A stretch of 26,617 nucleotides of DNA from a virus. The stretch spans positions 1-26,617 of the IMG/VR virus record IMGVR_UViG_3300025889_000811; one strand, written 5' to 3'. The position numbers and the translations under genes are program-made. Under the pieces are notes generated by a model. It worked only from the letters and a program-made list of their open reading frames with translations. It did not search any database and had not been told where the DNA came from. Below, piece after piece: positions 1,997 to 17,594 of the stretch; positions within the stretch are counted from its first letter, which is position 1, and the number at the start of each line of letters is the position of its first letter.

Positions 1997-2093
1997 GATG
2001 TAATTTCATCAGAAATTACAAGATTACATCGGCACGATTTTGTGCTTAGCTTTTTCATTTTGTAATTTCTGCCAATTTTCTGAAATTACAAAA
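1997..2093. repeat. Module A, block 1: two ATTACA/TGTAAT hairpins
   Basis: The first hairpin pairs TGTAATTTC (1999-2007) with GAAATTACA (2012-2020), 9 bp with a 4-base loop; GATGTAAT and ATTACATC at 1997 and 2023 mark the outer ends. The second pairs TTTTGTAATTTC (2058-2069) with GAAATTACAAAA (2082-2093), 12 bp with a 12-base loop. The string GAAATTACAAGATTACA, then TTTTGTGCTTA, then TTGTAATTTCTG is repeated at 17292-17343. Confidence 0.85.
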
Positions 2094-2134
2094 AATGTGA
2101 CGTAGCGTCTAAAATCCTTAATTAAACACTGTTT

Positions 2135-2164
2135 TGTAATTTTCAATTTTTTTTAGAAATTACA
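2135..2164. repeat. Hairpin in module A
   Basis: TGTAATTT (2135-2142) pairs with AAATTACA (2157-2164), 8 bp around a T-rich loop. It belongs to the same hairpin family as the others in the two non-coding modules and has no run of T after a GC stem, so it is not a typical terminator. Confidence 0.7.
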
Positions 2165-2194
2165 TTTCTTTTCAATTTTGTGCTTAATTAACAT

Positions 2195-2302
2195 CTTGTA
2201 ATCTTGTAATCTTGTAATTTCACTTTCAAGCAAAAAATCAAAAATCAAAAAAAATATTCCTTAAATTACAAAAGCCAAATTACAAGATTACAAGGTTACA
2301 AA
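2195..2302. repeat. Module A, block 2: three CTTGTAAT facing three ATTACAAG units
   Basis: Three perfect tandem copies of CTTGTAAT (2195-2218) are followed, after 60 bases, by ATTACAAG, ATTACAAG and GTTACAAA (2279-2302). The two arms are inverted repeats of each other over about 24 bases with one or two mismatches. The spacer contains CACTTT, an A-rich run and CCTTAAATTACAAAA, which are also found in the spacer of the copy at 17399-17507. Confidence 0.9.
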
Positions 2303-2385
2303 GGGCTATTTTTACATTTCCTTATACAAAAATAATATATAAATTACTTAGTTGATAATTAGCTAAAAAAGCGGGATTTTTTCTT

Positions 2386-2772
2386 TTATATTTCTCTTAT
2401 AACTCTTAAAATCATATCATCATGATCTCTTTTAGCTTGATTTATACAATAATTCTTAAATTCATATAAAATAGACTTATTTTCAAACACTATAGTTTCA
2501 AATATTAAAGGTCTATCTGATATTCTTACGTAAGAGAAAGGATTTTCCCACTCACAAAAAGGTAAACATACAGTGGACACCACATATTCTTTTGCACCAT
2601 AAAGTGTTGATACTGTGCTGTTATCTGAGGCTAAATTAAACTTATCGTATTTGATAGCATCTTTCACCCCATTATTTTTTTTAAGAAACTCACGATATTT
2701 GGTTTTATCGCATTTTATAACTGTGTCTGTTGCTTTGTCATACCAATAATAATCATCATTTAATTCATTCAT
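2386..2772 (-). CDS. Conserved phage protein of unknown function ('VSTV...LIFETIVF' type)
   Basis: 128 residues. The pattern YYWYDKATDTVIKCD near the N-terminus, VVSTVCLPFC in the middle, RPLIFETIVFE, and a closing A-x-x-DHDDMI matches a widespread uncharacterised phage family whose members read 'ISTVFLG...P-x-LFET-M-x-F-G...A-x-x-G-H'. No catalytic motif is evident. It is the last gene of the accessory cluster and overlaps its neighbour by ATGA, so the two are probably co-translated. The family assignment comes from remembered sequence patterns; the function is unknown. Confidence 0.7.
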   Translation of the reverse strand: MNELNDDYYWYDKATDTVIKCDKTKYREFLKKNNGVKDAIKYDKFNLASDNSTVSTLYGAKEYVVSTVCLPFCEWENPFSYVRISDRPLIFETIVFENKSILYEFKNYCINQAKRDHDDMILRVIREI

Positions 2773-3239
2773 AACTCAACTCCATATTCTGGCATTTCAT
2801 CAAATAAACTATGTATTGTTTTAATTACATGGGAATAAATATCTTCATAAGAATAAGCGTAACCTCTTTCCATATCCCATGCATGATTAAAATCACAACC
2901 TACTTTTATTATTTTCTTTTCGCCTTCCTCTAATCCCCTAACTTTTGAATAAAATGTTATTCCAGAATAAAAGTAAATATTATTTAGCGTTGTATGGTTG
3001 TCGTAATTATACATTGTTCCATGATGTTTCCCTAATTTATAATGTTCTACAGGTAACCAAAATGAATCAGGATTATATTTTTTTGGTATTTTTTCGATAT
3101 CAATGTAAATGTAATAAGTCCAATAATAATCGTCAACATTAAAATCAATTTTTAAATTTGGTCTGAAAATCTGATTAATCTCAAAAAAAACATCTTTATA
3201 AAAACCTGTGTATATTATTCTTTTATTTGTTTCACTCAT
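2769..3239 (-). CDS. Conserved phage hypothetical protein ('GITFYSK...VGCDFNHAWD' type)
   Basis: 156 residues rich in Tyr, Trp and His. The motifs YTGFYKDVFFEI, WTYYIYIDIEKIP, FWLPVE, SGITFYSK and KVGCDFNHAWDMERGY follow a recurring phage family of unknown role, usually with 'GCDY-x-H-x-W-D'. The conserved Cys, Asp, His, Trp and Asp could form a small-molecule or metal site, but that is speculation. It overlaps both neighbours by ATGA junctions, so three genes (3385 to 2386) form a coupled run. Confidence 0.65.
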   Translation of the reverse strand: MSETNKRIIYTGFYKDVFFEINQIFRPNLKIDFNVDDYYWTYYIYIDIEKIPKKYNPDSFWLPVEHYKLGKHHGTMYNYDNHTTLNNIYFYSGITFYSKVRGLEEGEKKIIKVGCDFNHAWDMERGYAYSYEDIYSHVIKTIHSLFDEMPEYGVEL

Positions 3240-3385
3240 AACTCAACCTTTTTGTACATTTTTTCTAAAAACTCTTCAATATTGCTACCATCAGTTAACA
3301 TAACTGCTTCTAACATATCAGCATAATTTACTTTATCGAGTATCTTATTTTCAATTAAGAATTTAATTATTTTTTCAGATTCCAT
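3236..3385 (-). CDS. Small protein, 49 residues, unknown
   Basis: Reads MESEKIIKFLIENK and ends KKVEL. It is acidic, probably two helices, with no recognised motif. It is supported by a good ribosome site (GAGGAA, about 8 bases before the ATG at 3385) and an ATGA overlap with the next gene, and it fills an otherwise empty 158-base gap. Function unknown. Confidence 0.6.
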   Translation of the reverse strand: MESEKIIKFLIENKILDKVNYADMLEAVMLTDGSNIEEFLEKMYKKVEL

Positions 3386-3398
3386 AAAATATTCCTCT

Positions 3399-3710
3399 TT
3401 ATATAAAGTCATTAGAACTTACACCATTAATATAATAAGGATCTGTTAATTCTCTGCGTGATTGTTCTGAAAAATCATTATAAAGGTCAATTTGATTAAC
3501 ACTTTCAATTAAATCAAATAAGTTAATTTTTTGATCAATTATTAAAGAACTAATATAGTCATTAAAATCAAGATTAAGCTCAATTGTAACGTAATTGATA
3601 TATAATTCCAGTTGCTCTTGATCAATTATATTTAATTCTTCAAAATACGTTGCCCAATCGCTAGGGGCATTATAATAAGGGTTTTTCCCTGTGTATTTGT
3701 ATAAGATCAT
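3399..3710 (-). CDS. Hypothetical acidic protein, 103 residues
   Basis: Not recognised. It starts MILYKYTGKNPYYNAPSDW and is acidic, with predicted helices in the second half (DQKINLFDLIESVNQIDLY). The start is firm: the ATG at 3710 is preceded by GAGAGG in one of the shared cluster leaders. The 30 bases of start codon plus leader are identical to those of the 29-residue gene at 4916. The next gene begins 14 bases after its stop. Confidence 0.55.
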   Translation of the reverse strand: MILYKYTGKNPYYNAPSDWATYFEELNIIDQEQLELYINYVTIELNLDFNDYISSLIIDQKINLFDLIESVNQIDLYNDFSEQSRRELTDPYYINGVSSNDFI

Positions 3711-3740
3711 TGTTTACCTCTCTTTTCTCTTTGATATAGA
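3711..3740 (-). promoter_or_regulatory. Shared early leader, copy 1
   Basis: On the minus strand this reads TATATCAAAGAGA, then AAAGAGAGG, then TAAACA before ATG. It is identical over 27 bases to the leader at 4917-4943. It contains the ribosome site but is much longer than one needs to be. Similar leaders occur at 4917, 5214, 7835, 12492, 13176 and 17135. Confidence 0.75.
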
Positions 3741-3781
3741 TATAGTTTACTACTATTTATTTAATTTTTAAATAGGTATTT

Positions 3782-4267
3782 TTAATCGGAAACCTCCTCA
3801 TATGTTTTCTTGAAAATTCTAGGCTTACAAGGGTAAAACTCACCCTCAACTCCCTTTATTATGTAATCCCCTATACTTGCTATATGTTCACCCTCTAACG
3901 TTGGAACTGTAAGAGTGTTATCTTTGTTTTTTTTGAACCCACAAGTAACAAACTCTTTCAACTTCTCTAAATTATCGGAATCACCTGTATATTGAATAGC
4001 TTGAATAACCACAGGCTTTTTTTTATATTTTTTAATCGGTTTGCTTACTTCGGGAAAACCTTGATTTATGCTTTTTGTGAAATCTTCAGAAAATAAATTA
4101 ATTTCAGTCGTAAGTTTACTTAAAATATTTTTTAATTCTTTTTTACTCAATTTTTTGTTTGGATCTGATAATTGAATTTCGCCACGATACCTTCCATTTT
4201 CTTTTGTGATTTTAACTTCTTTAAATTCATATTCTTTAAATTTCAAATTTATTTCATCTATATTCAT
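3782..4267 (-). CDS. Conserved phage protein with 'GDYIIKGVEGEFYPCKPRIFKKTYE' type C-terminus
   Basis: 161 residues in two parts. The N-terminal 75 residues are charged and helical. The C-terminal part (about 80-158) begins KYKKKPVVIQAIQYTG and ends with IGDYIIKGVEGEFYPCKP then IFKKTYEEV. This C-terminal domain is very common in phages and prophages across many hosts and its function is unknown. Translation is well supported: a perfect AAGGAGG lies just before the ATG, inside the end of the upstream gene, and the two genes overlap by ATGA. Confidence 0.7.
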   Translation of the reverse strand: MNIDEINLKFKEYEFKEVKITKENGRYRGEIQLSDPNKKLSKKELKNILSKLTTEINLFSEDFTKSINQGFPEVSKPIKKYKKKPVVIQAIQYTGDSDNLEKLKEFVTCGFKKNKDNTLTVPTLEGEHIASIGDYIIKGVEGEFYPCKPRIFKKTYEEVSD

Positions 4268-4665
4268 TTTTTCCTCCTTATATCGATTAGTTTTGCATTG
4301 TTATAAGATCTTACTTCTGAATTATCATAAGCGCTTACTTTTGAATTTTCATAAGCGCTTACTTTTGAATGCCCAAAAGCCATTACTTTTGAATGCCCAA
4401 AAGCCATTGCTTCTGAATTTTCATAAGCGCTTACTTTTGAATGCCCAAAAGCCATTGCTTCTGAATTATCATAAGCTTTTGATTTTGAATTATCATAAGC
4501 ATATACCTTTACATTATCATATGCGTATACATTTACATTATTCATAGCTATTACTTTTGCGTCACCAAAAACATAATAGATATTATCTCCAGTTAATAAA
4601 TAGTAACCATATTCATCTTGTTTTATATCTGCTGGGTTGGTTTTTTCTTTATCTAAATAAATCAT
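4264..4665 (-). CDS. Octapeptide-repeat protein, probable beta-solenoid
   Basis: 133 residues. A short N-terminal domain (about 1-33, containing QDEYGYYLLTGDNIYYVFG) is followed by about eleven 8-residue units of the form S-K-V-x-A-Y-(D/E/G)-(N/H). Alternating small and aromatic positions suggest a stacked beta structure. Proteins with A-Y-D-N-x-x-V repeats occur in phages and bacteria, but the role is unknown; surface binding or decoration would be plausible. The start has a strong AAAGGAG. Repeats are also nearly identical at the DNA level, so unit number may change readily. It overlaps the next gene by ATGA. Confidence 0.65.
   Translation of the reverse strand: MIYLDKEKTNPADIKQDEYGYYLLTGDNIYYVFGDAKVIAMNNVNVYAYDNVKVYAYDNSKSKAYDNSEAMAFGHSKVSAYENSEAMAFGHSKVMAFGHSKVSAYENSKVSAYDNSEVRSYNNAKLIDIRRKK
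4312..4500. repeat. 24-bp coding repeats within the octapeptide gene
   Basis: Tandem 24-base units encode the octapeptides. Two unit types, one giving E-N-S-K-V-S-A-Y and one giving G-H-S-K-V-M-A-F, alternate with almost no silent differences. TTTTGAATGCCCAAAAGCC (plus strand) recurs three times. Low divergence suggests recent expansion or ongoing slippage. Confidence 0.75.
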
Positions 4666-4677
4666 TATTAACTCCTT

Positions 4678-4830
4678 TTACTTATTAATTGACACAAGCA
4701 ACCTTTCAATCAAAATCATTATATGATTATATTTTGCTTGAGTTACTTTTGGATCATTATTATATTTTTGCAATTCATTTTTAAGCAGTTTAAATATAAT
4801 TTCATTTTTATATTGTTGTAGAGGACTCAT
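4678..4830 (-). CDS. Small helical protein, 50 residues
   Basis: Starts MSPLQQYKNEIIFKLLKNEL and ends LLVSINK. It looks like two amphipathic helices and resembles short uncharacterised phage proteins with a hydrophobic heptad pattern; no motif is recognised. Its ATG shares an ATGA junction with the preceding 29-residue gene, which has a strong ribosome site, so it is probably translated by coupling. Confidence 0.55.
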   Translation of the reverse strand: MSPLQQYKNEIIFKLLKNELQKYNNDPKVTQAKYNHIMILIERLLVSINK

Positions 4831-4916
4831 ACGTTCCACCGTATAATATAGCTAATAATTACTAACACGGTGCAAATATAAAAAGCTGTTTCCACATAAT
4901 TAAATTTTTTATCCAT
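4827..4916 (-). CDS. Single-span membrane microprotein, 29 residues
   Basis: Reads MDKKFNYVETAFYICTVLVI then ISYIIRWNV: a charged N-terminus, one hydrophobic helix (about residues 10-25) and a short basic end. It is preceded by a full shared leader with GAGAGG, identical to that at 3711 over 30 bases including the ATG. That is strong evidence for expression despite the size. Its stop overlaps the next start (ATGA). The function is unknown; it could act on the host inner membrane. Confidence 0.6.
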   Translation of the reverse strand: MDKKFNYVETAFYICTVLVIISYIIRWNV

Positions 4917-4950
4917 TGTTTACCTCTCTTTTCTCTTTGATATGTTTATA
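4917..4950 (-). promoter_or_regulatory. Shared early leader, copy 2, with promoter-like upstream
   Basis: On the minus strand TACAAT-ATAAAC precedes ATATCAAAGAGA and AAAGAGAGG. The stretch ATATAAACATATCAAAGAGA is shared with copy 3, which suggests that the conserved unit includes a -10 region and the transcript start as well as the ribosome site. Confidence 0.65.
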
Positions 4951-4973
4951 TTGTAACATATTAATTATTTTTT

Positions 4974-5213
4974 TTAAAATTTATTAGATTCAAACACGAC
5001 TTTTTCGCTTGGATTATGAATGTTCTTGATCGCCAAGCCATTATTTCTAACAGCTTCAATCTGGACTTTTTCGGATGGATTATCAATATATTTGATTGCC
5101 AACACATTATTTTTAACAGCTTCTAACTGAACTTTTTCGGATGGATTATCAATATACCGTATTGAATCCCCATTCTTTTTAACAACTTTTAGCTGTTCTT
5201 CTTCATTTTCCAT
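4974..5213 (-). CDS. Small solenoid repeat protein (three ~22-residue units), DUF4116-like
   Basis: 79 residues made of three near-identical units: x-I-R-Y-I-D-N-P-S-E-K-V-Q-L-E-A-V-K-N-N-(G/V). The units match the DUF4116-type repeat seen in many phage, protist-associated and bacterial proteins, which probably stack as helical pairs. The function of these repeats is unknown. A larger paralogue with seven to eight units lies at 12552-13175, and both genes use the same leader type. The start is fixed by GAGAGG seven bases upstream. The last unit diverges (VVFESNKF), so the gene may be a truncated copy of a longer ancestor. Confidence 0.65.
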   Translation of the reverse strand: MENEEEQLKVVKKNGDSIRYIDNPSEKVQLEAVKNNVLAIKYIDNPSEKVQIEAVRNNGLAIKNIHNPSEKVVFESNKF

Positions 5214-5274
5214 TACTTACCTCTCTTATCTCTTTGATATGTTTATATCATACTATTATTTTAAAAAAAAACAA
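5214..5274 (-). promoter_or_regulatory. Shared early leader, copy 3, with a readable sigma70-like promoter
   Basis: On the minus strand TTGTTT (5274-5269), a 16-base spacer and TATGAT (5252-5247) precede ATATAAACATATCAAAGAGA and AAGAGAGG. This is the best -35/-10 pair among the leader copies. The region lies back to back with the plus-strand promoter candidate of the gene at 5312. Confidence 0.6.
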
Positions 5275-5275
5275 G

Positions 5276-5311
5276 TATAATAAAACCTATATCAATTAAA
5301 AGAGGGAAGAG
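5276..5311 (+). promoter_or_regulatory. Divergent plus-strand promoter and leader
   Basis: A perfect TATAAT (5276-5281) is followed by CTATATCAATTAAAAGAGGG before ATG at 5312. The leader resembles the minus-strand shared leaders (ATATCAA...AAGAGGG) but points the other way. No clear -35 is visible. Confidence 0.5.
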
Positions 5312-5500
5312 ATGAAAGAGTGTAATATTACAAGTTTTTTAACTATTAAAAAAACTAAAATAAAATTAACCGTAAGGATTGAAAATAATGTAAGCTGTAA
5401 ATCATACGTGTATGAAACTAAAAACACGATTAATACAATTGAGTTACTTAATTGGCAACAATTAAAAATCAAACAATCGCTTTTGAATCACCAATTTTAA
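5312..5500 (+). CDS. Small protein on the opposite strand, 62 residues
   Basis: The only plus-strand gene I can support. It starts MKECNITSFLTIKKTKIKLT, is basic and probably mostly beta strand, then ends IKQSLLNHQF; no family is recognised. Evidence for expression is its own TATAAT, a leader resembling that of the cluster's other genes, a good AGAGGGAAGAG ribosome site, and that it fills the 255-base gap between two minus-strand genes. Its 3' end overlaps the convergent gene at 5469 by 32 bases. A divergently read small gene in an otherwise one-strand phage region is often a regulator, but no DNA-binding motif is visible. Confidence 0.55.
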   Translation: MKECNITSFLTIKKTKIKLTVRIENNVSCKSYVYETKNTINTIELLNWQQLKIKQSLLNHQF

Positions 5501-5696
5501 TCGCTAAATCAAGTAAGTTTTTGTTTAATTGACCGATATAATGCGATAATTTATCTTGGTATTTTCGCTCTTGATCTAACCTTTCGGCGATAATTTCAAT
5601 CTTCTCGTCAAAAATCATATTGATAATGTCAATCAAGGAATTAATGTCTTGCACATCTTTTTCGAGGCTTTGAACTCGATTAATTAGTTTTTCCAT
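5469..5696 (-). CDS. Short coiled-coil protein, 75 residues
   Basis: Heptad-rich throughout (MEKLINRVQSLEKDVQDINS, then LDQERKYQDKLSHYIGQLNK), with no membrane span or enzyme motif. It overlaps the upstream membrane/coiled-coil gene by 17 bases, so the two probably form a pair whose coiled coils may interact. There is no strong ribosome site before its ATG, which favours coupled translation. The function is unknown. Confidence 0.55.
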   Translation of the reverse strand: MEKLINRVQSLEKDVQDINSLIDIINMIFDEKIEIIAERLDQERKYQDKLSHYIGQLNKNLLDLAIKIGDSKAIV

Positions 5697-6072
5697 TGAG
5701 ATACTTTATTTTTTCATCGTTTCGTAAAATTACTTCTCGCTGTTCTTGCAACAACGAATTAATATTATCGATACTATACTTAACGTTTTTTAATTCTTTT
5801 ACAACGCACGATATTTCATTTTTTAAATCTTTCTTAATTGGATCAACAAATTTATTAAAGTTATCTTGATTGATATACTCAGTTTTTAGTTTAATTTTGA
5901 TATCATCTAAGTTTTTTGTTGTTTGCGTTTGAAATTTAAAAATCTTAACTGTAACGTAAAAAATAGAAGGTAAATTAAACATAAGTATAATCCCAAAGAA
6001 TGAAAAAAGCCCTAACTCTCTAAGTGAATCTAAAATTAAACGTAATCCTACAGTTTCTACCATGCCTGTCAT
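5680..6072 (-). CDS. Membrane protein with long coiled-coil tail, 130 residues
   Basis: A hydrophobic region (about residues 18-45, GLFSFFGIILMFNLPSIFYV) suggests one or two membrane spans. It is followed by a charged, heptad-rich domain (about 55-125). The family is not recognised. It lies between the exported protein at 6112 and the coiled-coil protein at 5469, so the three may form an envelope-associated set. Two ATGs nine bases apart could be the start; neither has a clean ribosome site. Confidence 0.55.
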   Translation of the reverse strand: MTGMVETVGLRLILDSLRELGLFSFFGIILMFNLPSIFYVTVKIFKFQTQTTKNLDDIKIKLKTEYINQDNFNKFVDPIKKDLKNEISCVVKELKNVKYSIDNINSLLQEQREVILRNDEKIKYLNGKTN

Positions 6073-6111
6073 AATAGTTTAATTTTAACGTACTTTTTTA
6101 AAAATTAAAAA

Positions 6112-6552: not shown

Positions 6553-6567
6553 TTAAAAAAACTCCCT

Positions 6568-7209
6568 TTAAAATAATTGTAATTGTGCTGTATGTATATT
6601 TATTCTTTCACACATCTTTATAAAATAATCTTCATCAATTTCACACCCAGTTAAATTAAAATTCATATCATGACAAGCAATCGCAATACTACCACTACCT
6701 AGATGAGTATCGAGGATCTTATCTCCCGCTTTTGCGTAATTATTTAAAATCCAAGAATAAAGTTTTACTGGTTTTTGTGTTGGATGAAACCTGTTTTTTT
6801 CTTGGCTTCTCACCTCATACGTTTTAGCAACCTTATCAAAAGAAGACCAAGCCATCTCCCATCTGCTCATTGAGGGCATCATTTGTTTTTTATCCCAACA
6901 TATAATTCCCCTTGTGTTATATAGGTGGTCAATAAAATAATTCCCCCCCCATATTATTTGGTTTTTACTAACCCTAAATAGTTGTTTAAAGTATTCTGCA
7001 CTTGGAATTTCCTCATCCCATTGTTTTAATCTATATTCTTCTTTGTATTTTCCCATTATACCCTTGCCACCTCCTTCAACCAATCTACTTCCAAGACCAT
7101 AAGGGGGATCAACAATGGCAAGATCAAAATAATTATCTGGATACTTCTTCATTAACTCCATGCAATCCATGTTATATAAATTTAAATTATTTTTAACAAA
7201 ATAATTCAT
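6568..7209 (-). CDS. DNA adenine/cytosine-N4 methyltransferase, beta class
   Basis: 213 residues. DPPY (34-37) is the catalytic motif IV. RFHPTQKPVKLYSWIL (141-155) and LDTHLGSGSIAIAC (166-179, motif I) form the S-adenosylmethionine site, with E190 behind it. The DPPY-before-motif-I order is that of the beta group; DPPY is most common in N6-adenine enzymes. The recognition domain is the short middle part (about 45-130). No restriction enzyme is adjacent, so it is probably an orphan enzyme protecting phage DNA or regulating expression. A GAGGTGG lies nine bases before the ATG, inside a candidate 25-residue membrane peptide. Confidence 0.9.
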   Translation of the reverse strand: MNYFVKNNLNLYNMDCMELMKKYPDNYFDLAIVDPPYGLGSRLVEGGGKGIMGKYKEEYRLKQWDEEIPSAEYFKQLFRVSKNQIIWGGNYFIDHLYNTRGIICWDKKQMMPSMSRWEMAWSSFDKVAKTYEVRSQEKNRFHPTQKPVKLYSWILNNYAKAGDKILDTHLGSGSIAIACHDMNFNLTGCEIDEDYFIKMCERINIHTAQLQLF

Positions 7210-7283
7210 TGATCCACCTCATAACTTATATATATTGCTAATGCAATAATTATTAAAATCAAAATAAATATAAATACATTCAT
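7206..7283 (-). CDS. Candidate membrane microprotein, 25 residues
   Basis: Reads MNVFIFILILIIIALAIYIS then YEVDQ: one continuous hydrophobic helix with an acidic C-terminus. It fills the gap between two genes and its TGA overlaps the methyltransferase ATG (ATGA). No ribosome site is obvious. Hydrophobic low-complexity translations arise easily in AT-rich DNA, so confidence is limited. Confidence 0.4.
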   Translation of the reverse strand: MNVFIFILILIIIALAIYISYEVDQ

Positions 7284-7286
7284 ATA

Positions 7287-7550: not shown

Positions 7551-7552
7551 GG

Positions 7553-7834
7553 TTACCCCTCCCCTGCAACTTTCTTAGCTAAACGCATATTGGTCGTGTA
7601 GACAACTAATCTAACTCGTGGGTTTTTCTTAACATAATCAACAACATATTTTTTATACTTGTGCGGGTATTTCAAGACTGAATCCGCCCACTCCTGCTTA
7701 CTGAAATCAGTATTAACATGTAATTTTTTAGCGTGTTTACCAGTTCCAATAATAAAATCACTAGCTTTACTTACACCTTTGTAAGATACTAATTTGCTTG
7801 CCACCTTAACATCGTTTGCATAATATTTTTTCAT
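7553..7834 (-). CDS. Hypothetical strongly basic protein, 93 residues
   Basis: Not recognised. Rich in Lys and Arg, with a pattern of short helices and a strand (VRLVVYTTNMRLAKKVAGEG). High charge suggests nucleic-acid binding, which is only a guess. The ATG is preceded by the shared leader with AAGAGAGG; the following gene starts inside a tight junction, so 7834 heads a short operon running through the methyltransferase. Confidence 0.5.
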   Translation of the reverse strand: MKKYYANDVKVASKLVSYKGVSKASDFIIGTGKHAKKLHVNTDFSKQEWADSVLKYPHKYKKYVVDYVKKNPRVRLVVYTTNMRLAKKVAGEG

Positions 7835-7872
7835 TTTCTCTACCTCTCTTCTCTCTTTTGGTATATATATAA
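7835..7872 (-). promoter_or_regulatory. Shared early leader, copy 4
   Basis: On the minus strand GGTATTATATATATACC is followed by AAAAGAGAGAAGAGAGG. GGTATTATATATATACC (7875-7859 region) is a near-perfect palindrome not present in the other copies and might be an operator. The ribosome site sits at the end of the conserved part. Confidence 0.55.
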
Positions 7873-7885
7873 TACCATAACTATT

Positions 7886-9296: not shown

Positions 9297-9743
9297 TTAT
9301 ATTAAATTAAATCCTTTTAACTTATTTGATAATATTATTAAATTCACCTCCTGCCAATAATTTCTATTTTTAAAAGAAACGTTAAACGCATAATTTTTTA
9401 AATTACCAAAAGGGATTTTTTCAACTTCAAACATAATTTTCGTATCAAAAATAAAATCATATTCCCCACATCGAACAACCAAAAAAACTGTATTAGATCT
9501 AAATCTGTTACGCATCCATTGACGTTGAGGTTCAGTCCAGTGTTTCAAATTAATAAACGTGTTATCTTTTTTAGGCATGGTGCAACATTTAAACTCAATA
9601 AACCCATGTATACCATCTATAGTATAGGTGTAGTCGGGAGTACCGTTACACATAGAATTCTCTATTTTTTCGTGTCCGTCAACATTAGAAATTTTGTTTA
9701 ATATTAAACTGAAATCTTTGCTTAATTCACTTTCGGGTTTCAT
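9297..9743 (-). CDS. PD-(D/E)XK nuclease, VRR-NUC/resolvase-like
   Basis: 148 residues. The segment CNGTPDYTYTIDGIHGFIEF followed by K-C (about 32-53) shows the catalytic P-D-x(n)-(E)-x-K arrangement (D37, E50, K52), as in VRR-NUC and Holliday-junction resolvase-type nucleases. LKHWTEPQRQWMRNR (about 67-81) resembles the conserved helix with Gln and Arg that follows in VRR-NUC members. Likely role: processing branched DNA during replication, recombination or packaging. It sits beside the UvrD-like helicase. The ribosome site is weak, so it may be coupled to the 46-residue gene that overlaps it by 17 bases. Confidence 0.75.
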   Translation of the reverse strand: MKPESELSKDFSLILNKISNVDGHEKIENSMCNGTPDYTYTIDGIHGFIEFKCCTMPKKDNTFINLKHWTEPQRQWMRNRFRSNTVFLVVRCGEYDFIFDTKIMFEVEKIPFGNLKNYAFNVSFKNRNYWQEVNLIILSNKLKGFNLI

Positions 9744-9869: not shown

Positions 9870-11333
9870 TTATATTATACCGCACTTGTTAATCAATCTA
9901 AAACTATTATCACCATTGACAATATCAAGCCTATTTTTAGTCCTTGTTAATGCAACATAAAAAACTCGTATTTCTGTTTCTTTTTTCTGTTTAGAAAATC
10001 GACTAAATTTATTTCCTAAACTATTAATCACTATTACTCTTTCCGCTTCTTTCCCCTTTGCTCCATGAATCGTATTTAATTTAATTGTATAATTGAATTT
10101 CAAATCTTTATTTAATTTAAGTAAACTTTTTAAGTATTTCTTTTTTTTGTATTCAAAGTTAAATACCGTTTCCCAATCATGTAATAATGTTGTATTTATA
10201 TCTAATTTTTTATATTTTGAATAAAAAAATTTGGTCATTACATTTGTTTGCTTTTCAGTTAAATCGTAACTTTTCAATTTCTCGTTTTTTAAACTCAAAA
10301 AAATCTTTAACGCTCTAAATTCTGGAATATCACAATACCCTATATGTTTTCCATCAATCTTATAGGGTAATCCTAATTTAATTAATTGGCTTTCAATTTG
10401 GGATCTAAAAAAATGGTTACGATATAATATCAATATATCATCATTATAATTGATATTTTTAACTGATAATACATTATTATAATAGTTAATCGTTCCCTGC
10501 TTATCCGTAGGCTTGAAATCTTTAAAAACTCGATTTTCTAGTTTCTGTATTAAGTTTTGACTTTTTTTGAACACATCTACAGGTAACCTATACGATTTAT
10601 TTAACACAACTCGTTCACAATTAAACGCATGTTCAAACTCTTGCATACCGTTAAGCCTAGCCCCTGCCCACTCGAAAATTGATTGATCGTCATCTCCTGC
10701 AATAATAACAATAGGTATATTTAACGCCCAATCATACACTATTTTCCATTGTAATAATGATAAATCTTGAGCCTCATCCACAATTAAAACTTTTGTATTT
10801 AAATCATATTGATTATACGCATTATATAGCATATCCGCATAATCAATATAATTATTTTCTTTTTTAAATTCTTCGTATCTATCACAAAATTTAATAAATT
10901 GATTTAAATTCCCTTTTTTTTCCGATTCTGAATACAACTTTTTTAAATCCGTTACCATTTTATTTTTTGCTAGATTGTATAACGCAAGGTAAAAATCCCC
11001 TAACAACGTTTCCGAATTTTCAATATTTTTAAAGTTGAATTTATACTTATATTTTTTTGAAAACTCTTTTAATTTTTCATTGTCTATAACATATTCGGGT
11101 AAGAATTTACACATCTGAAAACAAAGAGAATGAATAGTGCCGATATGTTTAATTTTTATATTACTTTTATTAGATAAAACTTTGGCCGCTGTTTTGGTAA
11201 AACTGCATAAAATAAAATCTTTACTATTTAAATTATATTTTTCTGAATAATAATTGATTTTATCAATAAGATATGTGCTTTTCCCTGTTCCTGCACTGCC
11301 ATATATAACTTTTCGCTCTGTCTTAATTTCCAA
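9870..11333 (-). CDS. UvrD/Rep-like superfamily 1A DNA helicase
   Basis: 487 residues with a full SF1A motif set: Walker A GSAGTGKST (12-20), SFTKTAA (44-50), GTIHSL (65-70), DEAQD (186-190), GDDDQSIFEWAGA (213-225), SYRLP (247-251), NTIHGAKGKEAERVI (420-434) and FYVALTRTKNRL (458-469). It is shorter than UvrD (about 720) because the 1B/2B subdomains are reduced, as in many phage helicases. It would unwind DNA 3'-to-5' in replication or recombination. The start is TTG at 11333, after an AAGGGTG; no ATG is available before the Walker motif. A GC-rich RNA-like structure lies just upstream. Confidence 0.92.
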   Translation of the reverse strand: MEIKTERKVIYGSAGTGKSTYLIDKINYYSEKYNLNSKDFILCSFTKTAAKVLSNKSNIKIKHIGTIHSLCFQMCKFLPEYVIDNEKLKEFSKKYKYKFNFKNIENSETLLGDFYLALYNLAKNKMVTDLKKLYSESEKKGNLNQFIKFCDRYEEFKKENNYIDYADMLYNAYNQYDLNTKVLIVDEAQDLSLLQWKIVYDWALNIPIVIIAGDDDQSIFEWAGARLNGMQEFEHAFNCERVVLNKSYRLPVDVFKKSQNLIQKLENRVFKDFKPTDKQGTINYYNNVLSVKNINYNDDILILYRNHFFRSQIESQLIKLGLPYKIDGKHIGYCDIPEFRALKIFLSLKNEKLKSYDLTEKQTNVMTKFFYSKYKKLDINTTLLHDWETVFNFEYKKKKYLKSLLKLNKDLKFNYTIKLNTIHGAKGKEAERVIVINSLGNKFSRFSKQKKETEIRVFYVALTRTKNRLDIVNGDNSFRLINKCGII

Positions 11334-11367
11334 ACTGTCACCCTTTTTTTAATTATACATAAAAACG

Positions 11368-11417: not shown

Positions 11418-11439
11418 ACATTAAAAGTAAGTTAGAATT

Positions 11440-11973: not shown

Positions 11974-12002
11974 TTTATTTTTTCCTTTATTTAATTATTT
12001 GT

Positions 12003-12491
12003 TTATTTATTTCGTTTTACTATTTTTGTTACTTGGTATTCATGAAACCTAAATATGTTTTCGTTTATTTCACCTCCATTATTAATATAATCAGTCAACA
12101 AAGCTCTAAGACTATTATTATTAACTGTTTCTTTAATTAACAGGCCGTGACCATTATCACGCAACCAATTATAAGCGTCTTCTTGCCTATCCGATTCAAT
12201 ACTAACATAATACGCTTTCGAATTAACTATCTGCCCTACCCCATCAATACTAATGTTCTTAATCCCTTGTGCTTCCATAGCATTGGGAACGTGATGTTTT
12301 CTCAACAATTCATAAAATGAGGTTAAAAGTGTTAATGCCCCTTTTATATCGTCAATTTTTTGTTTTGTGTCATTTTGTAATTTTGCTAAATCAACTAGAG
12401 TTTTTGTTGCTAAATTATCAGAATTGTTAATATCAATATAGCTATCAACACCCTTTTTTAAGTTTTCTATAATATTGTTTAAATTATCCAT
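12003..12491 (-). CDS. Conserved phage replication-module protein, unknown role
   Basis: 162 residues. A helical N-terminal half (residues 1-65) is followed by LRKHHVPNAMEAQGIKNISI, then DRQEDAYNWLRDNGHGLLIK, ETVNNNSLRALLTDYINNGG and FRFHEYQVTKIV. The series 'W-L-R-D-N-x-x-x-x-L-I-K-E-T-V-N-x-x-(S/T)-L-(K/R)' recurs in many phages, commonly next to single-strand binding proteins. Function is not known; a nuclease inhibitor or replication accessory role would be a guess. The start is fixed by a shared leader with AAGAGAGG. Confidence 0.65.
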   Translation of the reverse strand: MDNLNNIIENLKKGVDSYIDINNSDNLATKTLVDLAKLQNDTKQKIDDIKGALTLLTSFYELLRKHHVPNAMEAQGIKNISIDGVGQIVNSKAYYVSIESDRQEDAYNWLRDNGHGLLIKETVNNNSLRALLTDYINNGGEINENIFRFHEYQVTKIVKRNK

Positions 12492-12530
12492 CTTTTACCT
12501 CTCTTATCTCTTTTTGATATTTTTATATTA
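12492..12530 (-). promoter_or_regulatory. Shared early leader, copy 5
   Basis: On the minus strand TATATAATATAAA is followed by ATATCAAAAAGAGA and AAGAGAGG. Same layout as the other copies, with TATAAT-like sequence directly before the conserved block. Confidence 0.65.
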
Positions 12531-12551
12531 TATAATTAAAAAAATTATTAT

Positions 12552-13175
12552 TCAACATTTAATATAGTGCATTAATTCTGGATGATTTTCTTTTATAAAT
12601 AATTTTACTGATTCATAAGGTTTTTTTATCCACATTATCCCAAAACGATTATTCTGAACGATCTCTAACTGAACGATCTCAATAGGGTTTTTAATGTACT
12701 TAGCTAAGTAACCAAGATAGCAAGCTTCTCTTTTTTTCCCAGCGTTTACTGCTTCAATTTGGATATTATCGCTAGGTTTTTTTATGTACTTTATACAAAC
12801 TGGGTCTTGTCTTACCGCTTCAATCCTTGCTTTTTCTGTTGGATTTTTAATAAATTTTATCAATTCGCCCTTTTTTCTTACCGCAATTATTTGCAAATCT
12901 TCGCAAGGATTAATTATATACCGTATAGCGTAAGGGGTTTTATTGACTGCATCAAATTTAACTTTATGGCTTGGATTCTTAATATATTTCAATACCGCCC
13001 CGTCTTGATTTACAGCTGTAATCTGCTCTTCTTCGCTTGGGTTATCTATGTACTGTATTAAAAAACCGTATTTTTTTAATATTTCTTTCTTTTCTAAATT
13101 GCCATTTTTAAATAAATACTCACAAATATCATTTAACTGTTTAACCTGTTTTTTTAAACCTTTTTTTAAACACAT
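12552..13175 (-). CDS. Solenoid repeat protein with seven to eight ~22-residue units, DUF4116-like
   Basis: 207 residues. After a basic helical start (about 1-37) come seven to eight units of the form L-I-x-Y-I-x-N-P-S-(E/H)-x-V-x-(I/L)-x-A-V-x-x-x-(G/P). The sixth unit has an eight-residue insertion (AGKKREACYLGY). The small protein at 4974-5213 has three more regular units of the same type, so the phage carries a two-member family. Such repeats probably stack into a helical solenoid that binds protein or nucleic acid; function unknown. Shared leader with AAGAGAGG precedes the ATG. Confidence 0.65.
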   Translation of the reverse strand: MCLKKGLKKQVKQLNDICEYLFKNGNLEKKEILKKYGFLIQYIDNPSEEEQITAVNQDGAVLKYIKNPSHKVKFDAVNKTPYAIRYIINPCEDLQIIAVRKKGELIKFIKNPTEKARIEAVRQDPVCIKYIKKPSDNIQIEAVNAGKKREACYLGYLAKYIKNPIEIVQLEIVQNNRFGIMWIKKPYESVKLFIKENHPELMHYIKC

Positions 13176-13215
13176 ATTTTACCTCTCTTATCTCTTTTAA
13201 TTATATTATATAACT
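13176..13215 (-). promoter_or_regulatory. Shared early leader, copy 6
   Basis: On the minus strand TTATATAATATAATT is followed by AAAAGAGATAAGAGAGG and TAAAAT before ATG. The ATATC part of the consensus is replaced by ATAATT. Confidence 0.6.
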
Positions 13216-13223
13216 AAAAAATA

Positions 13224-13442
13224 TTAATCGTCTAGAAAATTATCTAAGTTGCGTATATATTTTTTTAACTGTGCGTGTTCTATGTCTTTAGTGTTAGTTA
13301 ATAAATGATAAAAATCAGATTGTGATATATTCATTTTTTTAGCTATTTTATTATCATCCCACCCTTTTTGCTTTAATTCGTTTATCGCATCTAATAACAA
13401 ACTGTAGTTAGCTATATCGCTCTTGATTGTGTCTATTCCCAT
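13224..13442 (-). CDS. Small helix-turn-helix protein, putative regulator
   Basis: 72 residues. LKQKGWDDNKIAKKMNISQSDFYHLL (about 23-48) has the spacing of a helix-turn-helix, with A34 in the first helix, a turn at N38, and S40-Q41 opening the recognition helix. The last third is helical and acidic. It could control phage transcription or bind replication sites. It is the only clear DNA-binding regulator candidate in the window, so it is a possible reader of the repeat modules, though nothing links them directly. No ribosome site precedes the ATG; it starts 12 bases after the upstream stop. Confidence 0.55.
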   Translation of the reverse strand: MGIDTIKSDIANYSLLLDAINELKQKGWDDNKIAKKMNISQSDFYHLLTNTKDIEHAQLKKYIRNLDNFLDD

Positions 13443-13453
13443 ATTATTAATTA

Positions 13454-13771
13454 TTACAAATTAATTGAATTATAAATCTTATCTTGGTTTGCCCATTTAA
13501 GAACGTTAATACTTCCATGTATTGCAAGTAACGCATGAACACATAACGCAATGATAACAGGATCGCCAGTAAACAATAAATGATCCGTTTCGGGATTAAA
13601 TTTATTTGCCATTGTGTCAATATCTTTTTTAATTACAGTGTTGATTTTTGAGTTTGCTATACTAGAATATTCAAAACTAGTTACAAATGTAGGCTCACCA
13701 TAATTTTTTGCTTGTGAATAATTTTTGTTATTTTCTTGTGTAATCCAAACTATTCCTTCTTTATTTTCCAT
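13454..13771 (-). CDS. Conserved phage protein ('WITQENN...GDPV...LKWANQDKIYNSI')
   Basis: 105 residues from the ATG at 13771. IVWITQENNKNYSQAKNYGE at the start, FNPETDHLLFTGDPVIIAL in the middle and LKWANQDKIYNSINL at the end match a widespread phage family ('W-V-T-Q-E...D-x-L-x-x-x-G-(D/S)-P-x...L-(K/R)-W-x-x-x-x-x-x-Y') that often accompanies phage SNF2-type helicases and primases. Function unknown. A longer start at 13798 would use a TAATG junction, but GAGAGGAG lies ten bases before the chosen ATG. Confidence 0.7.
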   Translation of the reverse strand: MENKEGIVWITQENNKNYSQAKNYGEPTFVTSFEYSSIANSKINTVIKKDIDTMANKFNPETDHLLFTGDPVIIALCVHALLAIHGSINVLKWANQDKIYNSINL

Positions 13772-13797
13772 CTCTTTTATCTCCTCTCTAATAATCA

Positions 13798-15537
13798 TTA
13801 TACCATATCATTAATATTATTCAATGATTGCTTAATATGCTCCGAAAAATCTTTTTTACTTTTTAAACAATCGTAAATTTTTTCATCCACAGTATTTTTA
13901 TAAATTAAATCAAAATAGGTCACTGTTCTATTTTGCCCGATTCGGTGGCATCTGTCTTCCGATTGCTCCCTGAATAACAAGCGTTCACTGTTACTATAAT
14001 ATATAACATAACATACCGTATTAATCGTTAATCCTGTACCCCCACTGTTAGGTGTCGACACAAAATACCGTATATCTCTATTATCCATTTGTTTTTGGAT
14101 TTCTTGTCGTTCTTCTTTTGTTTTATCCAAAAATGAAACCGCCCCAAATTTAAATTTATCCGTTTTATAATCACTTAAAAACCGTGTTACTTTTTCAACT
14201 TCATACCGATACTTACACCATATAATCACCTGCTCATTATCGGGTAATTCATCAATAATTGATTTTATTTCTTGTAATTTTTTGTTTTTTTGATCCGTTA
14301 CAATATCGCTAATTTTTTTGATCGGCTCTCCCTTATCATCAACTTGGCCTGTGTCTGCATTAACAAAGCCCCCACTAACCTGCTGTAAACTCACATACAA
14401 ACTTAACGCATTATTATATATCTGATTAATATCATCTAAGCCTTTAAGCTCAATGATTTTATCTTTTTTGATTTTGGTATAAAGTTTTGATTGCTCGTTT
14501 TCCATCTCTAAAAACCTTGTCATATATACCTTACTTGGTAACTCTTTTGAGGCTTCATCTTTTGTTACTTGGTAGGTGTAAGGACTAACTAATTTCATTA
14601 ATTCCTCTACGTTTTTATACCCAACAATTTTTTTAAATTCTTTTGATTTCAGTTTAATTGTTTCAGTGATAGTGTACCGATTTTTAAAACTCCAAAAATC
14701 TTTAATGCCTAATATATTAGGATCAATAAATTGATAAATTCCAAAAAGGTCAAGTATTCCCTGACTAACAGGTGTTCCAGTCATCGCTATACGATACACG
14801 CAATTTCTTGTTGCATTAAATATATTTTTAAATCTGTTACTTGTAGGATTCTTAATATCGTGAGCTTCATCAACAACACACGCAACTTTATTTAATTTAG
14901 TAAATTCATTAAATTTATGAGTTAATCGCCCATCACTTAACTGTAACGATTCTACCCCACACACCAAAATTTTAAGTTTTGTTTTGTCTTTGCTTTGTAT
15001 CATATTATCAATTTTTTTAAATGCCTTTTTATCTAAAATTTGAAATTCATAATCAAAAAAAGCGTGTTCTTGTAATTGTTTTTCCCACACATACCTAATT
15101 GAGCAAGGGCATATAATCACTAACGCATCAATTTTTTTTAAACAAAAATGTGCGTTCATTAAATCAATAATAATTTTACTCTTACCTGTTCCCATCGCCA
15201 TAGCTAACATTGAATTGTTTAAATTGTATACATGATTCAATGCCCCTATTTGATACGATCTAGGCTCATATTTAAACTCAAAACATGTTGGAAAATCTTT
15301 ATATTTTGGTAAAGCGTCATCAAAATTATTAATGTAATTTAAGCAATCTTGTGTCATCTTTAAATTATCATAAGTTTTCATTAACTCTTTTATGTGCATA
15401 ACATTTAATTTTAATGATGATGCTTCCCACATTTTCGTTTTGGATACAAATTTTCTACATGGGAATTTTCTTACAAGATCAAGCTCATTAAAATTGGTTG
15501 ATATAATGAATTTATTATTTAAATAATCAATTACCAT
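13798..15537 (-). CDS. SNF2-like superfamily 2 helicase/ATPase
   Basis: 579 residues from the ATG at 15537. The first 60 residues (FIISTNFNELDLVRKFPCRK, TKMWEAS) resemble the HARP-like N-terminal region found in annealing helicases. Motifs follow in order: LAMAMGTGKS (Walker A, about 111-120), VVDEAHD (about 221-227), RIAMTGTPVS (about 249-258), then in the C-terminal lobe QVIIWCKYR, TPNSGGTGLTINTV and REQSEDRCHRIGQ. The SNF2 signature 'RCHRIGQ' is clear. Phage members are thought to remodel forks or serve as replicative helicases. The preferred ATG has GAGGGTG upstream and overlaps the primase end by 11 bases. Confidence 0.9.
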   Translation of the reverse strand: MVIDYLNNKFIISTNFNELDLVRKFPCRKFVSKTKMWEASSLKLNVMHIKELMKTYDNLKMTQDCLNYINNFDDALPKYKDFPTCFEFKYEPRSYQIGALNHVYNLNNSMLAMAMGTGKSKIIIDLMNAHFCLKKIDALVIICPCSIRYVWEKQLQEHAFFDYEFQILDKKAFKKIDNMIQSKDKTKLKILVCGVESLQLSDGRLTHKFNEFTKLNKVACVVDEAHDIKNPTSNRFKNIFNATRNCVYRIAMTGTPVSQGILDLFGIYQFIDPNILGIKDFWSFKNRYTITETIKLKSKEFKKIVGYKNVEELMKLVSPYTYQVTKDEASKELPSKVYMTRFLEMENEQSKLYTKIKKDKIIELKGLDDINQIYNNALSLYVSLQQVSGGFVNADTGQVDDKGEPIKKISDIVTDQKNKKLQEIKSIIDELPDNEQVIIWCKYRYEVEKVTRFLSDYKTDKFKFGAVSFLDKTKEERQEIQKQMDNRDIRYFVSTPNSGGTGLTINTVCYVIYYSNSERLLFREQSEDRCHRIGQNRTVTYFDLIYKNTVDEKIYDCLKSKKDFSEHIKQSLNNINDMV

Positions 15538-17134
15538 TATTAACACCCTCAACATCAATTAGTTTATCTTCTTTTTTTATGCAATCAATTTTATTTTTAT
15601 CTGTTAATGGTATCCGCCAGATATTTACTACTTGATTACCGTTTTCTGTTTTAACTCGTATTGTATGCGATTCTACGTTAAACTCTTTTAATGCTAAATA
15701 GATGTTTTCTCCTAAAACATTACCGAACTTTTTAGTAATCAAAAATTCTTTAAAATCTGGAAATCTAAAACAAAAATACCGTTTCTTTTGCATCGTGTGT
15801 TTATCATCAAAACTAATAATAATCTGTTCACCATCAAGGATAGCTGATCGATCTTCTAAATTTTCGCATACATTATCATCACAGTTTGAATTTTTTCTAA
15901 ATTCTTCCAAATACCCACGCACTAATCCCGATTGACTTGCATCGTCTGGCAATTCTTCATACTCTATTTTCTTGGTTAATTCTTCCACAATATACATCCA
16001 TTCATCCGCTTTTACCGTTTTAATTACAGTATCTAATTGCTCAAACACTTTAAGCCTAAAATACTTAAAATTAAGTAATTCATTACTGCTTAACGTAACA
16101 GATTTAAACCCCTCAATTGAATTAACTTTTACCTCTAATCGATACTTAACTGGTTCAGTAATGTATTTTATGAATTTCCCAAATTCTGGTAAATCACTTA
16201 ACATTAACGTGCTTTTTTCTGCACTTGTAATCCCGTATTGCCTTTTTACACACAATTCTGCATTACAATACATTTTGCATGGGTTCTCTTGGCATTTATA
16301 TTGATAACCCTTTTGCCTTTGTACTGACTTAATTACTGCGTTTACTTCCTCATAGGTTAATTTTGGTGTTATAGCAACATCATTAAAGTTATATACCATA
16401 CTTTCCCACCCATCGGGGGATTTTTTTCTGGCATAAATACAAAAGTTATATAATGCGTTATTGCGTTGCCCTTGTCCGATTTTGTTTTTAAAAAATTCTT
16501 GGATACATGGTGGTGCTTGTGCGTGTTTATCATCCCCCACCAATTTAATTAAATCATCATTACTAACCCTAATTGAATTACAATAATTGATAAACGTATT
16601 AACATCATAAACAATCTTATTATTAATAATTGCGTATCGTTCAGTATACCCTTTTTCGCACCCAAAATAAGGTAAATTAATCCAATTTCCTATAATATGT
16701 TTATCGACACTATCTTGTTTTGGAAACACCTCAATTTCTATCTCACCATGCCCTTTTAAAACATCAATTAAATTGTTAAGTACGGATCGCAATAGTTTAG
16801 TTTTTAGTTTCTCTTTTCCAAAAATGTATACATGACCACCACCACTTTTAGATCTACATACAACCATAGGCAACTTTTCATCTGCTATTTTTTTAGCTAA
16901 CTTAAATAAATTGATCCCATCTGATATTTCGTGATTGTCAAAATCTAATACTCCAAAATTACTAAACTCTTTATCAACTACAGGGATAATACCTAACCCC
17001 ATAGCCCCACTAAAATGGTTATCATACTCTTTTTGTGTTGGTGCTGTCTTTTTGGTAAACGATTTATTGTTTTTCCAATCGTGTACCCCAAATGCGTTAG
17101 GGTTGCCCGAAAATAAATTTTTAAATTCTTCCAT
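15527..17134 (-). CDS. Archaeo-eukaryotic-type primase(-polymerase) with PriCT-like and zinc region
   Basis: 535 residues. The AEP active site is readable: GVLDFDNH (D64, D66 as metal ligands), SGGGHVYIF (97-105, with H101), IEVFPKQD (134-141) and GNWINLPYF (149-157). This matches the TOTE/phage AEP branch. A helical PriCT-like region (about 219-275) is followed by four cysteines (C281, C286, C290, C295) that probably bind zinc. The C-terminal 230 residues are not recognised. It should make primers and perhaps extend DNA, and is first in the replication cluster, coupled to the SNF2 helicase. A shared-type leader with GAGAGGAGAG precedes it; no family-A/B polymerase is in the window. Confidence 0.85.
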   Translation of the reverse strand: MEEFKNLFSGNPNAFGVHDWKNNKSFTKKTAPTQKEYDNHFSGAMGLGIIPVVDKEFSNFGVLDFDNHEISDGINLFKLAKKIADEKLPMVVCRSKSGGGHVYIFGKEKLKTKLLRSVLNNLIDVLKGHGEIEIEVFPKQDSVDKHIIGNWINLPYFGCEKGYTERYAIINNKIVYDVNTFINYCNSIRVSNDDLIKLVGDDKHAQAPPCIQEFFKNKIGQGQRNNALYNFCIYARKKSPDGWESMVYNFNDVAITPKLTYEEVNAVIKSVQRQKGYQYKCQENPCKMYCNAELCVKRQYGITSAEKSTLMLSDLPEFGKFIKYITEPVKYRLEVKVNSIEGFKSVTLSSNELLNFKYFRLKVFEQLDTVIKTVKADEWMYIVEELTKKIEYEELPDDASQSGLVRGYLEEFRKNSNCDDNVCENLEDRSAILDGEQIIISFDDKHTMQKKRYFCFRFPDFKEFLITKKFGNVLGENIYLALKEFNVESHTIRVKTENGNQVVNIWRIPLTDKNKIDCIKKEDKLIDVEGVNNGN

Positions 17135-17181
17135 AGTTAATCATCTCTCCTCTCTTTTGATATATTATAGTATACATTATA
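17135..17181 (-). promoter_or_regulatory. Leader and promoter candidate of the replication cluster (copy 7)
   Basis: On the minus strand two TATAAT hexamers (17181-17176 and 17169-17164) precede ATATATCAAAAGAGAGGAGAG and the primase ATG. The conserved block is like the other leaders. No TTGACA is seen upstream, so if this is a promoter it may depend on an activator or on the repeats just upstream. Confidence 0.6.
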
Positions 17182-17291
17182 TCTAGCATTTTTTTAAATA
17201 TTTTTTGTAATTTCTAAAAAAAAAATAATCATCACCCAAATTACAAAATCGCCTATTTTTAAGCATTTTTAAGCATTTTTATCGCTTCCTA

Positions 17292-17342
17292 GAAATTACA
17301 AGATTACAACTTTTGTGCTTAATTTCATTTTTTTGTAATTTC
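17292..17342. repeat. Module B, block 1
   Basis: GAAATTACAAGATTACAA, then TTTTGTGCTTA, then TTGTAATTTC. GAAATTACAA (17292-17301) and TTGTAATTTC (17333-17342) are inverted repeats of 10 bp. The same string of elements in the same direction is found at 2012-2069 in module A, with TTTTGTGCTTA in the same place between them. Confidence 0.8.
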
Positions 17343-17398
17343 TGGTATTTATTAACAATTTTGTAAATTTAAGTACAAAAACAGGCTATTTTTAAGGC

Positions 17399-17507
17399 TT
17401 TGTAATCTTGTAATGCTGTAATTCCACTTTTTTTATTTTTTTTTAAATTTCAAAAAAAAATCCCTTAATTACAAAAATATGAAATTACAAGATTACAAGA
17501 TTACATC
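17399..17507. repeat. Module B, block 2: three TTGTAAT-type units facing three ATTACAAG-type units
   Basis: TTTGTAAT, CTTGTAAT, GCTGTAAT (17399-17422), a 61-base spacer, then ATTACAAG, ATTACAAG, ATTACATC (17484-17507). Geometry equals that of module A (three units, about 60 bases, three units), and the spacer again contains CCACTTT, an A-rich run and CCCTTAATTACAAAA. Confidence 0.88.
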
Positions 17508-17572
17508 CTGTTAATAACCTGTGTATATTTTTTTTATCTATGCTTAAAAACTGTGGATAACCTGTTAATAAC
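17507..17572. other. DnaA-box cluster, candidate replication origin
   Basis: TGTGGATAA at 17552-17560 is the exact complement of the canonical DnaA box TTATCCACA. Three near-boxes flank it: TTATTAACA (complement strand) at 17509-17517 and 17563-17571, and ATATACACA at 17520-17528. The 12-mer CCTGTTAATAAC is repeated exactly at 17507-17518 and 17561-17572. Four DnaA-like sites within 66 bases, next to AT runs and 8-bp iterons and just upstream of the primase gene, fit an origin that borrows host DnaA. Confidence 0.6.
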
Positions 17573-17573
17573 G

Positions 17574-17594
17574 TGTAATTTCTGTAAAATTACA
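17574..17594. repeat. Hairpin at the end of module B
   Basis: TGTAATTT (17574-17581) pairs with AAATTACA (17587-17594), 8 bp with a 5-base loop. It lies just after the tail hub stop but has no T run on the minus strand after it, so it is more likely part of the repeat family than a terminator. Confidence 0.6.

Follow-up and report, generated by a model that had tools for sequence, protein, structure and literature searches.

Why does a viral genome keep two similar non-coding repeat arrays, one at either end of its replication and accessory genes? The question is raised by the IMG/VR virus record IMGVR_UViG_3300025889_000811, of which the entire deposited contig was analysed. This contig (26,617 bases; referred to below as the window) is classed as linear and is probably a fragment. 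It contains two paralogous non-coding modules, L at positions 1997-2302 and R at 17203-17594. Sequence comparisons make it close to certain that these are real modules, that they come as a pair and that they are conserved; they are very likely arrays of protein-binding sites. The best single explanation of the pair, to which we give about an even chance, is that L and R are twin iteron-type replication origins, analogous to oriL and oriR of phage SPP1.

A preliminary description of this DNA had proposed that the two modules contain the same elements in the same order and orientation, and that they flank the replication/accessory block, each one at the boundary of a transcription block. Each of these elements was found, displaced by no more than a few bases from the position that it had given, and their order and orientation agree between L and R; the distance from the first to the second element of block 1 is 26 bp in L and 19 bp in R. 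All eight copies of ATTACAAGATTACA in the record lie inside L and R, while a control with reversed letters gave none, and 10 of the 14 copies of ATTACAAG fall within the modules. ATTACA cores number 13 in L and 14 in R, more than had been counted before. The 8-mer clustering score was 152 for L and 120 for R, compared with 15 for the best of 60 second-order Markov genomes, so that repeat clustering in the modules is about ten times the top value obtained from random genomes. Alignment of L with R scored 147, compared with at most 89 for shuffled controls. Both modules are richer in A/T than the window as a whole (21.5% and 24.9% G+C, compared with 30.4%). As the record is a linear fragment, further copies could lie in the late region outside it; no third module was present in the part covered by contigs L133 and L135, which reach beyond the left end of the window. 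The only cluster in the window that outscored both modules is a coding tandem repeat at 4250-4600. Nine 24-bp tandem repeats are found here (4262-4570), within a gene at 4264-4665, and encode an 8-residue protein repeat.

The sub-elements of the two modules are:

2012..2028, plus strand: L block 1, GAAATTACAAGATTACA
2038..2048, plus strand: L TTTTGTGCTTA box, with a second copy at 2176-2186
2060..2071, plus strand: L block 1, TTGTAATTTCTG
2195..2218, minus strand: L triple array, three copies of CTTGTAAT with an 8-bp period
2219..2278: L spacer, 60 bp, A/T-rich, with one further AAATTACA inside
2279..2302, plus strand: L facing triple array, ATTACAAG ATTACAAG GTTACAAA
17256..17279: R TTTTTAAGCA repeated with a 10-bp step, A/T-rich, diverged in contig L131
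17292..17308, plus strand: R block 1, GAAATTACAAGATTACA
17311..17321, plus strand: R TTTTGTGCTTA box, invariant in five R modules except at the last position of the A-run
17333..17344, plus strand: R block 1, TTGTAATTTCTG
17399..17422, minus strand: R triple array, TTTGTAAT CTTGTAAT GCTGTAAT
17423..17483: R spacer, 61 bp
17484..17507, plus strand: R facing triple array, ATTACAAG ATTACAAG ATTACATC
17509..17571, minus strand: R, four DnaA-box-like sites on one strand in two 11-bp pairs, at 17509 (TTATTAACA), 17520 (ATATACACA), 17552 (TTATCCACA) and 17563 (TTATTAACA)
17574..17594: R outermost inverted pair, TGTAATTTCTGTAAAATTACA

The TTTTGTGCTTA box of L is conserved throughout the five L modules; the copy at 2176 has a single variant base. 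The TTTTTAAGCA repeat of R is a possible unwinding element.

Close relatives were identified among IMG/VR contigs through the flanking genes, yielding R in L129-L132 and L in L064 and L133-L135. The most diverged of these contigs (L131 for R and L135 for L) have kept nearly all ATTACA/TGTAAT cores while their spacers vary, and the AAGCACAAAA box is also kept in the most diverged close relatives. A megablast search with the window gave no match among 50,697 phages. When the primase encoded next to R was used in a tblastn search, 25 phage records were obtained, 15 of which cover 97% of the primase at 32-34% identity. Cultured relatives carrying paired modules in the same two gaps include the Acinetobacter phages SH-Ab15497 and DMU1, Klebsiella phage K21lambda1 (K21), Salmonella phage PMBT28 and Providencia phage Kokobel2. 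The shared synteny comprises the primase, an SF2 helicase, Pam3_gp32-like and Pam3 gp33-like proteins, UvrD, a phrog_2165 protein and TerS. In the five relatives with both gaps fully annotated as non-coding, the gaps measure 410-555 bp and lie upstream of the primase and of the late operon. In a clustering scan blind to the motif, the two gaps took the top two ranks in PMBT28, PSA28 (deposited as partial), SH-Ab15497 and K21lambda1, and ranks three and four in Kokobel2; the L gap of phage JeffCo ranked second. In each of the seven genomes tested, L can be aligned with R as its paralogue; six relatives were measured, and in these the distance from R to L amounts to 45.6-51.4% of the genome. Blast searches with the modules of SH-Ab15497 detected L in every one of the 10 Acinetobacter records, eight of which also matched R, and the L module of K21 was present in four records. 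These relatives keep both modules at the same places. The scan that the preliminary description had suggested was thereby carried out, and the outcomes that it had named as refuting its view, a random scatter of repeats or relatives lacking the arrangement, did not come about. A short palindrome, TGTCGCCGGGCGACA, and variants of it occur just before the first array in cultured relatives (L151 at about 22000-22015, and counterparts); it was not seen in the window clade.

The repeat word is identical within a genome and differs between lineages. It is TGTAAT in the window, TGGAAC in K21, PMBT28, PSA28 and Kokobel2, GCAAC in SH-Ab15497 and DMU1, and GTAAC mixed with GCAAAC in JeffCo. The 8-bp period stays: among 50 same-strand spacings in the pooled modules, including L037, 29 were of 8 bp, eight of 12 bp and four of 9 bp. 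As the word is the same within a genome and divergent between lineages, whatever binds it must coevolve with it. Presumably a single trans-acting protein binds both modules and changes together with the word.

The relative orientation of the modules is also variable. K21, PMBT28, PSA28 and Kokobel2 share a direct pair with the window, whereas SH-Ab15497 and JeffCo have it inverted; the scores separate the two orientations clearly, and the genes downstream of the modules keep their direction in either case. One proposal of the preliminary description was that the modules are borders at which the replication/accessory cassette is exchanged by recombination. Direct-repeat paralogues do flank the block in the window and in the enterobacterial relatives, but inversion of the pair in the Acinetobacter clade weakens this proposal, L and R are only about 60-70% identical, and a lineage-specific word could not guide exchange between lineages. 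We consider such borders very improbable. Since the pair can invert, the module is also unlikely to be part of a promoter. An origin bound by a protein acting at a distance would tolerate inversion, and remote regulation would tolerate it too.

The main genes of the window are all on the minus strand. The interval that separates the end of the tail gene (17615-20746) from the start of the primase gene (17134) is filled by R, and L occupies the one between the point where the early block ends (2386) and the start of the endolysin gene (1832), with a holin and the probable TerS further down. The modules thus mark the starts of two operons in a genome that is otherwise one-directional over the part in the record. 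A phage repressor or activator might bind both arrays remotely and coordinate the early (primase) and late (lysis, TerS and structural) operons. In front of either operon the gap is filled by a module, and promoter-like sequences follow in most gaps, with a perfect TTGACA-17-TATAAT in the L gaps of K21 and PMBT28. The distance from array to primase is fairly constant (-240 to -145 in K21, PMBT28 and Kokobel2), and K21 and PMBT28 have extra single motif copies close to the L promoter. However, the R-gap arrays of cultured relatives stop short of the predicted -35 by approximately 70-110 bp or more, several L promoters match the consensus already, and the pair inverts without any change in operon direction. 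Such a regulator, of which no conserved example was found, would also leave the DnaA-like cluster in R unexplained. On balance we regard it as rather unlikely.

The comparison to which the preliminary description gave most weight, with operators of ribbon-helix-helix (RHH) repressors such as MetJ, is not supported. Contiguous 8-bp units are found here too. Met boxes are palindromic and overlap promoters, whereas the units described here are non-palindromic, occur in both orientations and, in the cultured relatives, stand far upstream of promoter-like sites. Searches of Pfam and PHROGs with the main proteins of the window (small open reading frames were partly scanned, and the record is incomplete) gave no match to RHH, ParA/ParB, RepA-type or gp38/gp39 families. 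The lack of a recognised RHH, ParA or ParB gene among the proteins scanned also tells against centromere-like or DNA-bridging sites for a partition-type or RHH protein, and the relatives in culture were isolated as lytic phages. Short repeats that are contiguous and run in two orientations do resemble the arrays of RHH centromere-binding proteins such as omega, and the two sites lie nearly opposite one another on the circle; we nevertheless think a centromere-like role highly improbable.

An exact-word search of IMG/VR with ATTACAAGATTACA gave mostly single chance matches among the matches listed, which included the relative L064 and the divergent G001/L037. The facing-array pattern TGTAATNNTGTAATN{40,70}ATTACANNATTACA was present in only 14 of 2.9 million contigs, six of the window clade and eight others, and one gapless exact pattern search gave no match. 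The eight others (L255, L257, L258, L259, L260, L261, L263 and L264) have facing TGTAAT arrays with an 8-bp step, and a phrog_62 helicase match was found in three of them. The array of L261 lies upstream of TerS, and G001, which carries the primase, has its array directly upstream of TerS. Dense TAACAAA/TTTGTTA arrays were also seen on either side of a short gene with a TerS-like look at 15300-16110 of L241 (G005), a 64.6-kb phage that also has a gp32-like protein.

Binding of the arrays by TerS, as at a pac-like site, with the R copy as a secondary site or in another role, would account for arrays directly upstream of the TerS gene in DMU1/SH-Ab15497, G001/L037 and L261, and TerS is common to the window and its relatives. 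However, L is approximately 1.3 kb from TerS in the window and at least 2 kb from it in K21 and PMBT28, while R, equally well built, stands next to the primase at a distance of half a genome and is never adjacent to TerS. We take a packaging role to be improbable. Because the arrays are not confined to this replicon type, both TerS binding and general regulation stay alive as explanations.

The preliminary description had listed paired origins among its alternatives, not as its lead comparison; twin origins are now the best-supported reading. The primase gene follows R directly, and L stands at the head of the other operon. The DnaA-like boxes are retained even where the relatives are most diverged, and exact TTWTNCACA sites number one in R of the window, two in L130 and three in L131. 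When the gap alone was shuffled, the count of the window was reached in 2 of 1000 shuffles and its score in 1 of 1000, and the score of L131 was reached in none of 1000. We regard the DnaA-like cluster as supportive, not decisive. The early block of the window contains no polymerase-sized unassigned open reading frame, which fits dependence on host replication proteins; the relatives do encode a polymerase. In the mechanism we propose, each module would present arrays of short binding sites with an 8-bp step, facing one another across an A/T-rich spacer. One phage-encoded origin-recognition factor would bind both modules and deliver the replisome of phage primase and SF2 helicase, and in the window clade host initiation proteins would probably be recruited at the DnaA-box cluster of R. 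The bound complex would then, as a putative last step, start replication.

Several observations weigh against twin origins. When the whole window was shuffled, the DnaA-like count was reached in 20 of 200 shuffles and the score in 4 of 200, so that genome-wide the cluster is only moderately unusual; moreover it was found only in R of the window clade, and neither in L nor in the cultured relatives. GC skew in six relatives showed no turn at the modules. Most other relatives of the primase (30-32% identity) have no array upstream of the primase gene, indicating that the primase alone does not require one; L156, a relative in this range, does have an upstream TGGAAC array, with a 12-bp step. The eight contigs outside the window clade (G+C 0.38-0.60) have no detectable primase of this family, and several arrays adjoin TerS and not replication genes. 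It is possible, though doubtful, that the modules represent an unrecognised class of twin origin, with facing 8-bp-step arrays and a word that switches with an initiator of no known family. Such a class would occur both in phages that have the AEP primase and in phages that lack it, and its origin specificity would diverge in the manner of an incompatibility group.

Candidates for the protein that binds the arrays are the primase, the SF2 helicase, the Pam3 gp32-like and gp33-like proteins, and TerS. The primase, SF2 helicase, gp33-like protein and TerS are conserved across the array phages with enough sequence. phrog_62 is common to most array phages, including three without the primase, but its profile also matches 14 of 14 control genomes, and the link to the arrays is therefore weak. 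The predicted fold of the gp33-like protein gave no significant match and no recognised DNA-binding fold. That of the gp32-like protein likewise contains no recognised DNA-binding fold and resembles SAVED/CARF lobes. In its AlphaFold model (13454-13798, pLDDT 87.7) the closest structures are the SAVED/CARF lobes of CBASS and CRISPR proteins; the best match, 8fmh (E 5e-3, probability 1.00, TMq 0.56), falls short of the level usually taken as significant. It would be unexpected to find a stand-alone half-SAVED-like protein in a replication operon. The gp32-like protein was rejected as a required factor, as G001 has an array and no gp32-like match in its 20 kb. A 72-residue helix-turn-helix protein (13224-13442) was dropped as a universal binder because proteins at the comparable place in relatives do not align.

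The genes and signals considered in the window are:

17169..17174, minus strand: -10-like TATACT, putative promoter of the primase operon
15527..17134, minus strand: AEP-type primase (PF22548, phrog_21866), first gene after R
13798..15558, minus strand: SNF2-type SF2 helicase (phrog_62)
13454..13798, minus strand: Pam3_gp32-like protein, 114 residues (PF23992), conserved in the replication operon
12003..12491, minus strand: Pam3 gp33-like protein (PF23984, phrog_2378)
9870..11333, minus strand: UvrD-type helicase
9297..9743, minus strand: phrog_2165 protein of the early block, which we take to be VRR-NUC-like
1311..1832, minus strand: endolysin, first gene after L
179..694, minus strand: probable TerS, a weak match to TerS of K21 and SH-Ab15497

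The early block also encodes an N6/N4 DNA methyltransferase (6568-7209, minus strand). At least six early genes are preceded by a shared 5′ element, AAAGAGANAAGAGAGGTA in the minus-strand reading (3695-3732, 4901-4938, 5198-5235, 7821-7858, 12476-12513 and 13160-13197), which may be a common leader or a ribosome-binding signal. The genes at 4974-5213 and 12552-13175 have in common a 66-bp (22-residue) repeat, and the longer of the two matches DUF4116.

If L and R are origins, probable replication origins can be named for a group of phages that includes SH-Ab15497, a Z-genome phage for which no description of origins was found in the literature searched. Two coverage peaks approximately half a genome apart would then be predicted, which provides a clear test. 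The coevolving word gives a handle for finding a new initiator, and as several of these phages have been cultured, direct testing is possible.

Among known systems, the origins of iteron plasmids and oriR of phage P1 contain tandem iterons with DnaA boxes and an A/T-rich stretch alongside. In the window clade R is similar in that its arrays stand beside DnaA-like boxes, but plasmid iterons are usually approximately 20 bp, whereas the modules have an 8-bp period, facing arrays and two copies per genome. The NrS-1 PrimPol, a phage primase of the AEP family, recognises an 8-nt template site, 5′-TTTGGTTA-3′, proposed to fix the start of replication (PMC8718748). There the template recognised is single-stranded and the PrimPol has a helicase part of its own; unlike in the present case, no arrays, facing orientation or second copy are described in the portion considered here (PMC8718748). 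For the Acinetobacter phage vB_MZM_2AB-P, a report of 2025 lists 8-bp tandem repeats at 13,563-13,589 and 34,824-34,852 as Tandem Repeats Finder output; the portion considered here states no pairing, conservation or function for them (PMC12695905). The first of these lies within module R of that phage and the second within module L.

SPP1, a 44-kb siphophage, has two similarly built origins, oriL and oriR, consisting of direct repeats and an A/T-rich stretch and lying approximately 13 kb apart, and one phage protein, gp38, binds both (PMC6316719). A pair of direct-repeat origins within a single siphophage genome thus has a precedent. The genomes described here likewise have two similarly organised direct-repeat modules each. 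SPP1 has features of its own, namely gp38, the loader gp39, a DnaB-type helicase and the location of oriL inside gene 38, whereas here the replication core consists of an AEP primase and an SF2 helicase, the period is 8 bp and the word changes between lineages. We do not claim membership of an SPP1 type, because initiation at the modules is a prediction and no gp38-type protein was recognised among the proteins scanned. The literature search for this architecture yielded nothing beyond SPP1 and the uninterpreted vB_MZM_2AB-P listing. The statement in the preliminary description that no described element has this layout therefore needs qualification, given a close functional analogue in SPP1 and repeats already listed, though uninterpreted (PMC12695905). 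Arrays of direct repeats acting as origins or operators are of a known kind; judged by the literature searched, the layout, the changing word and the alternation between inverted and direct pairs are new, and SPP1 oriL/oriR is the closest known system.

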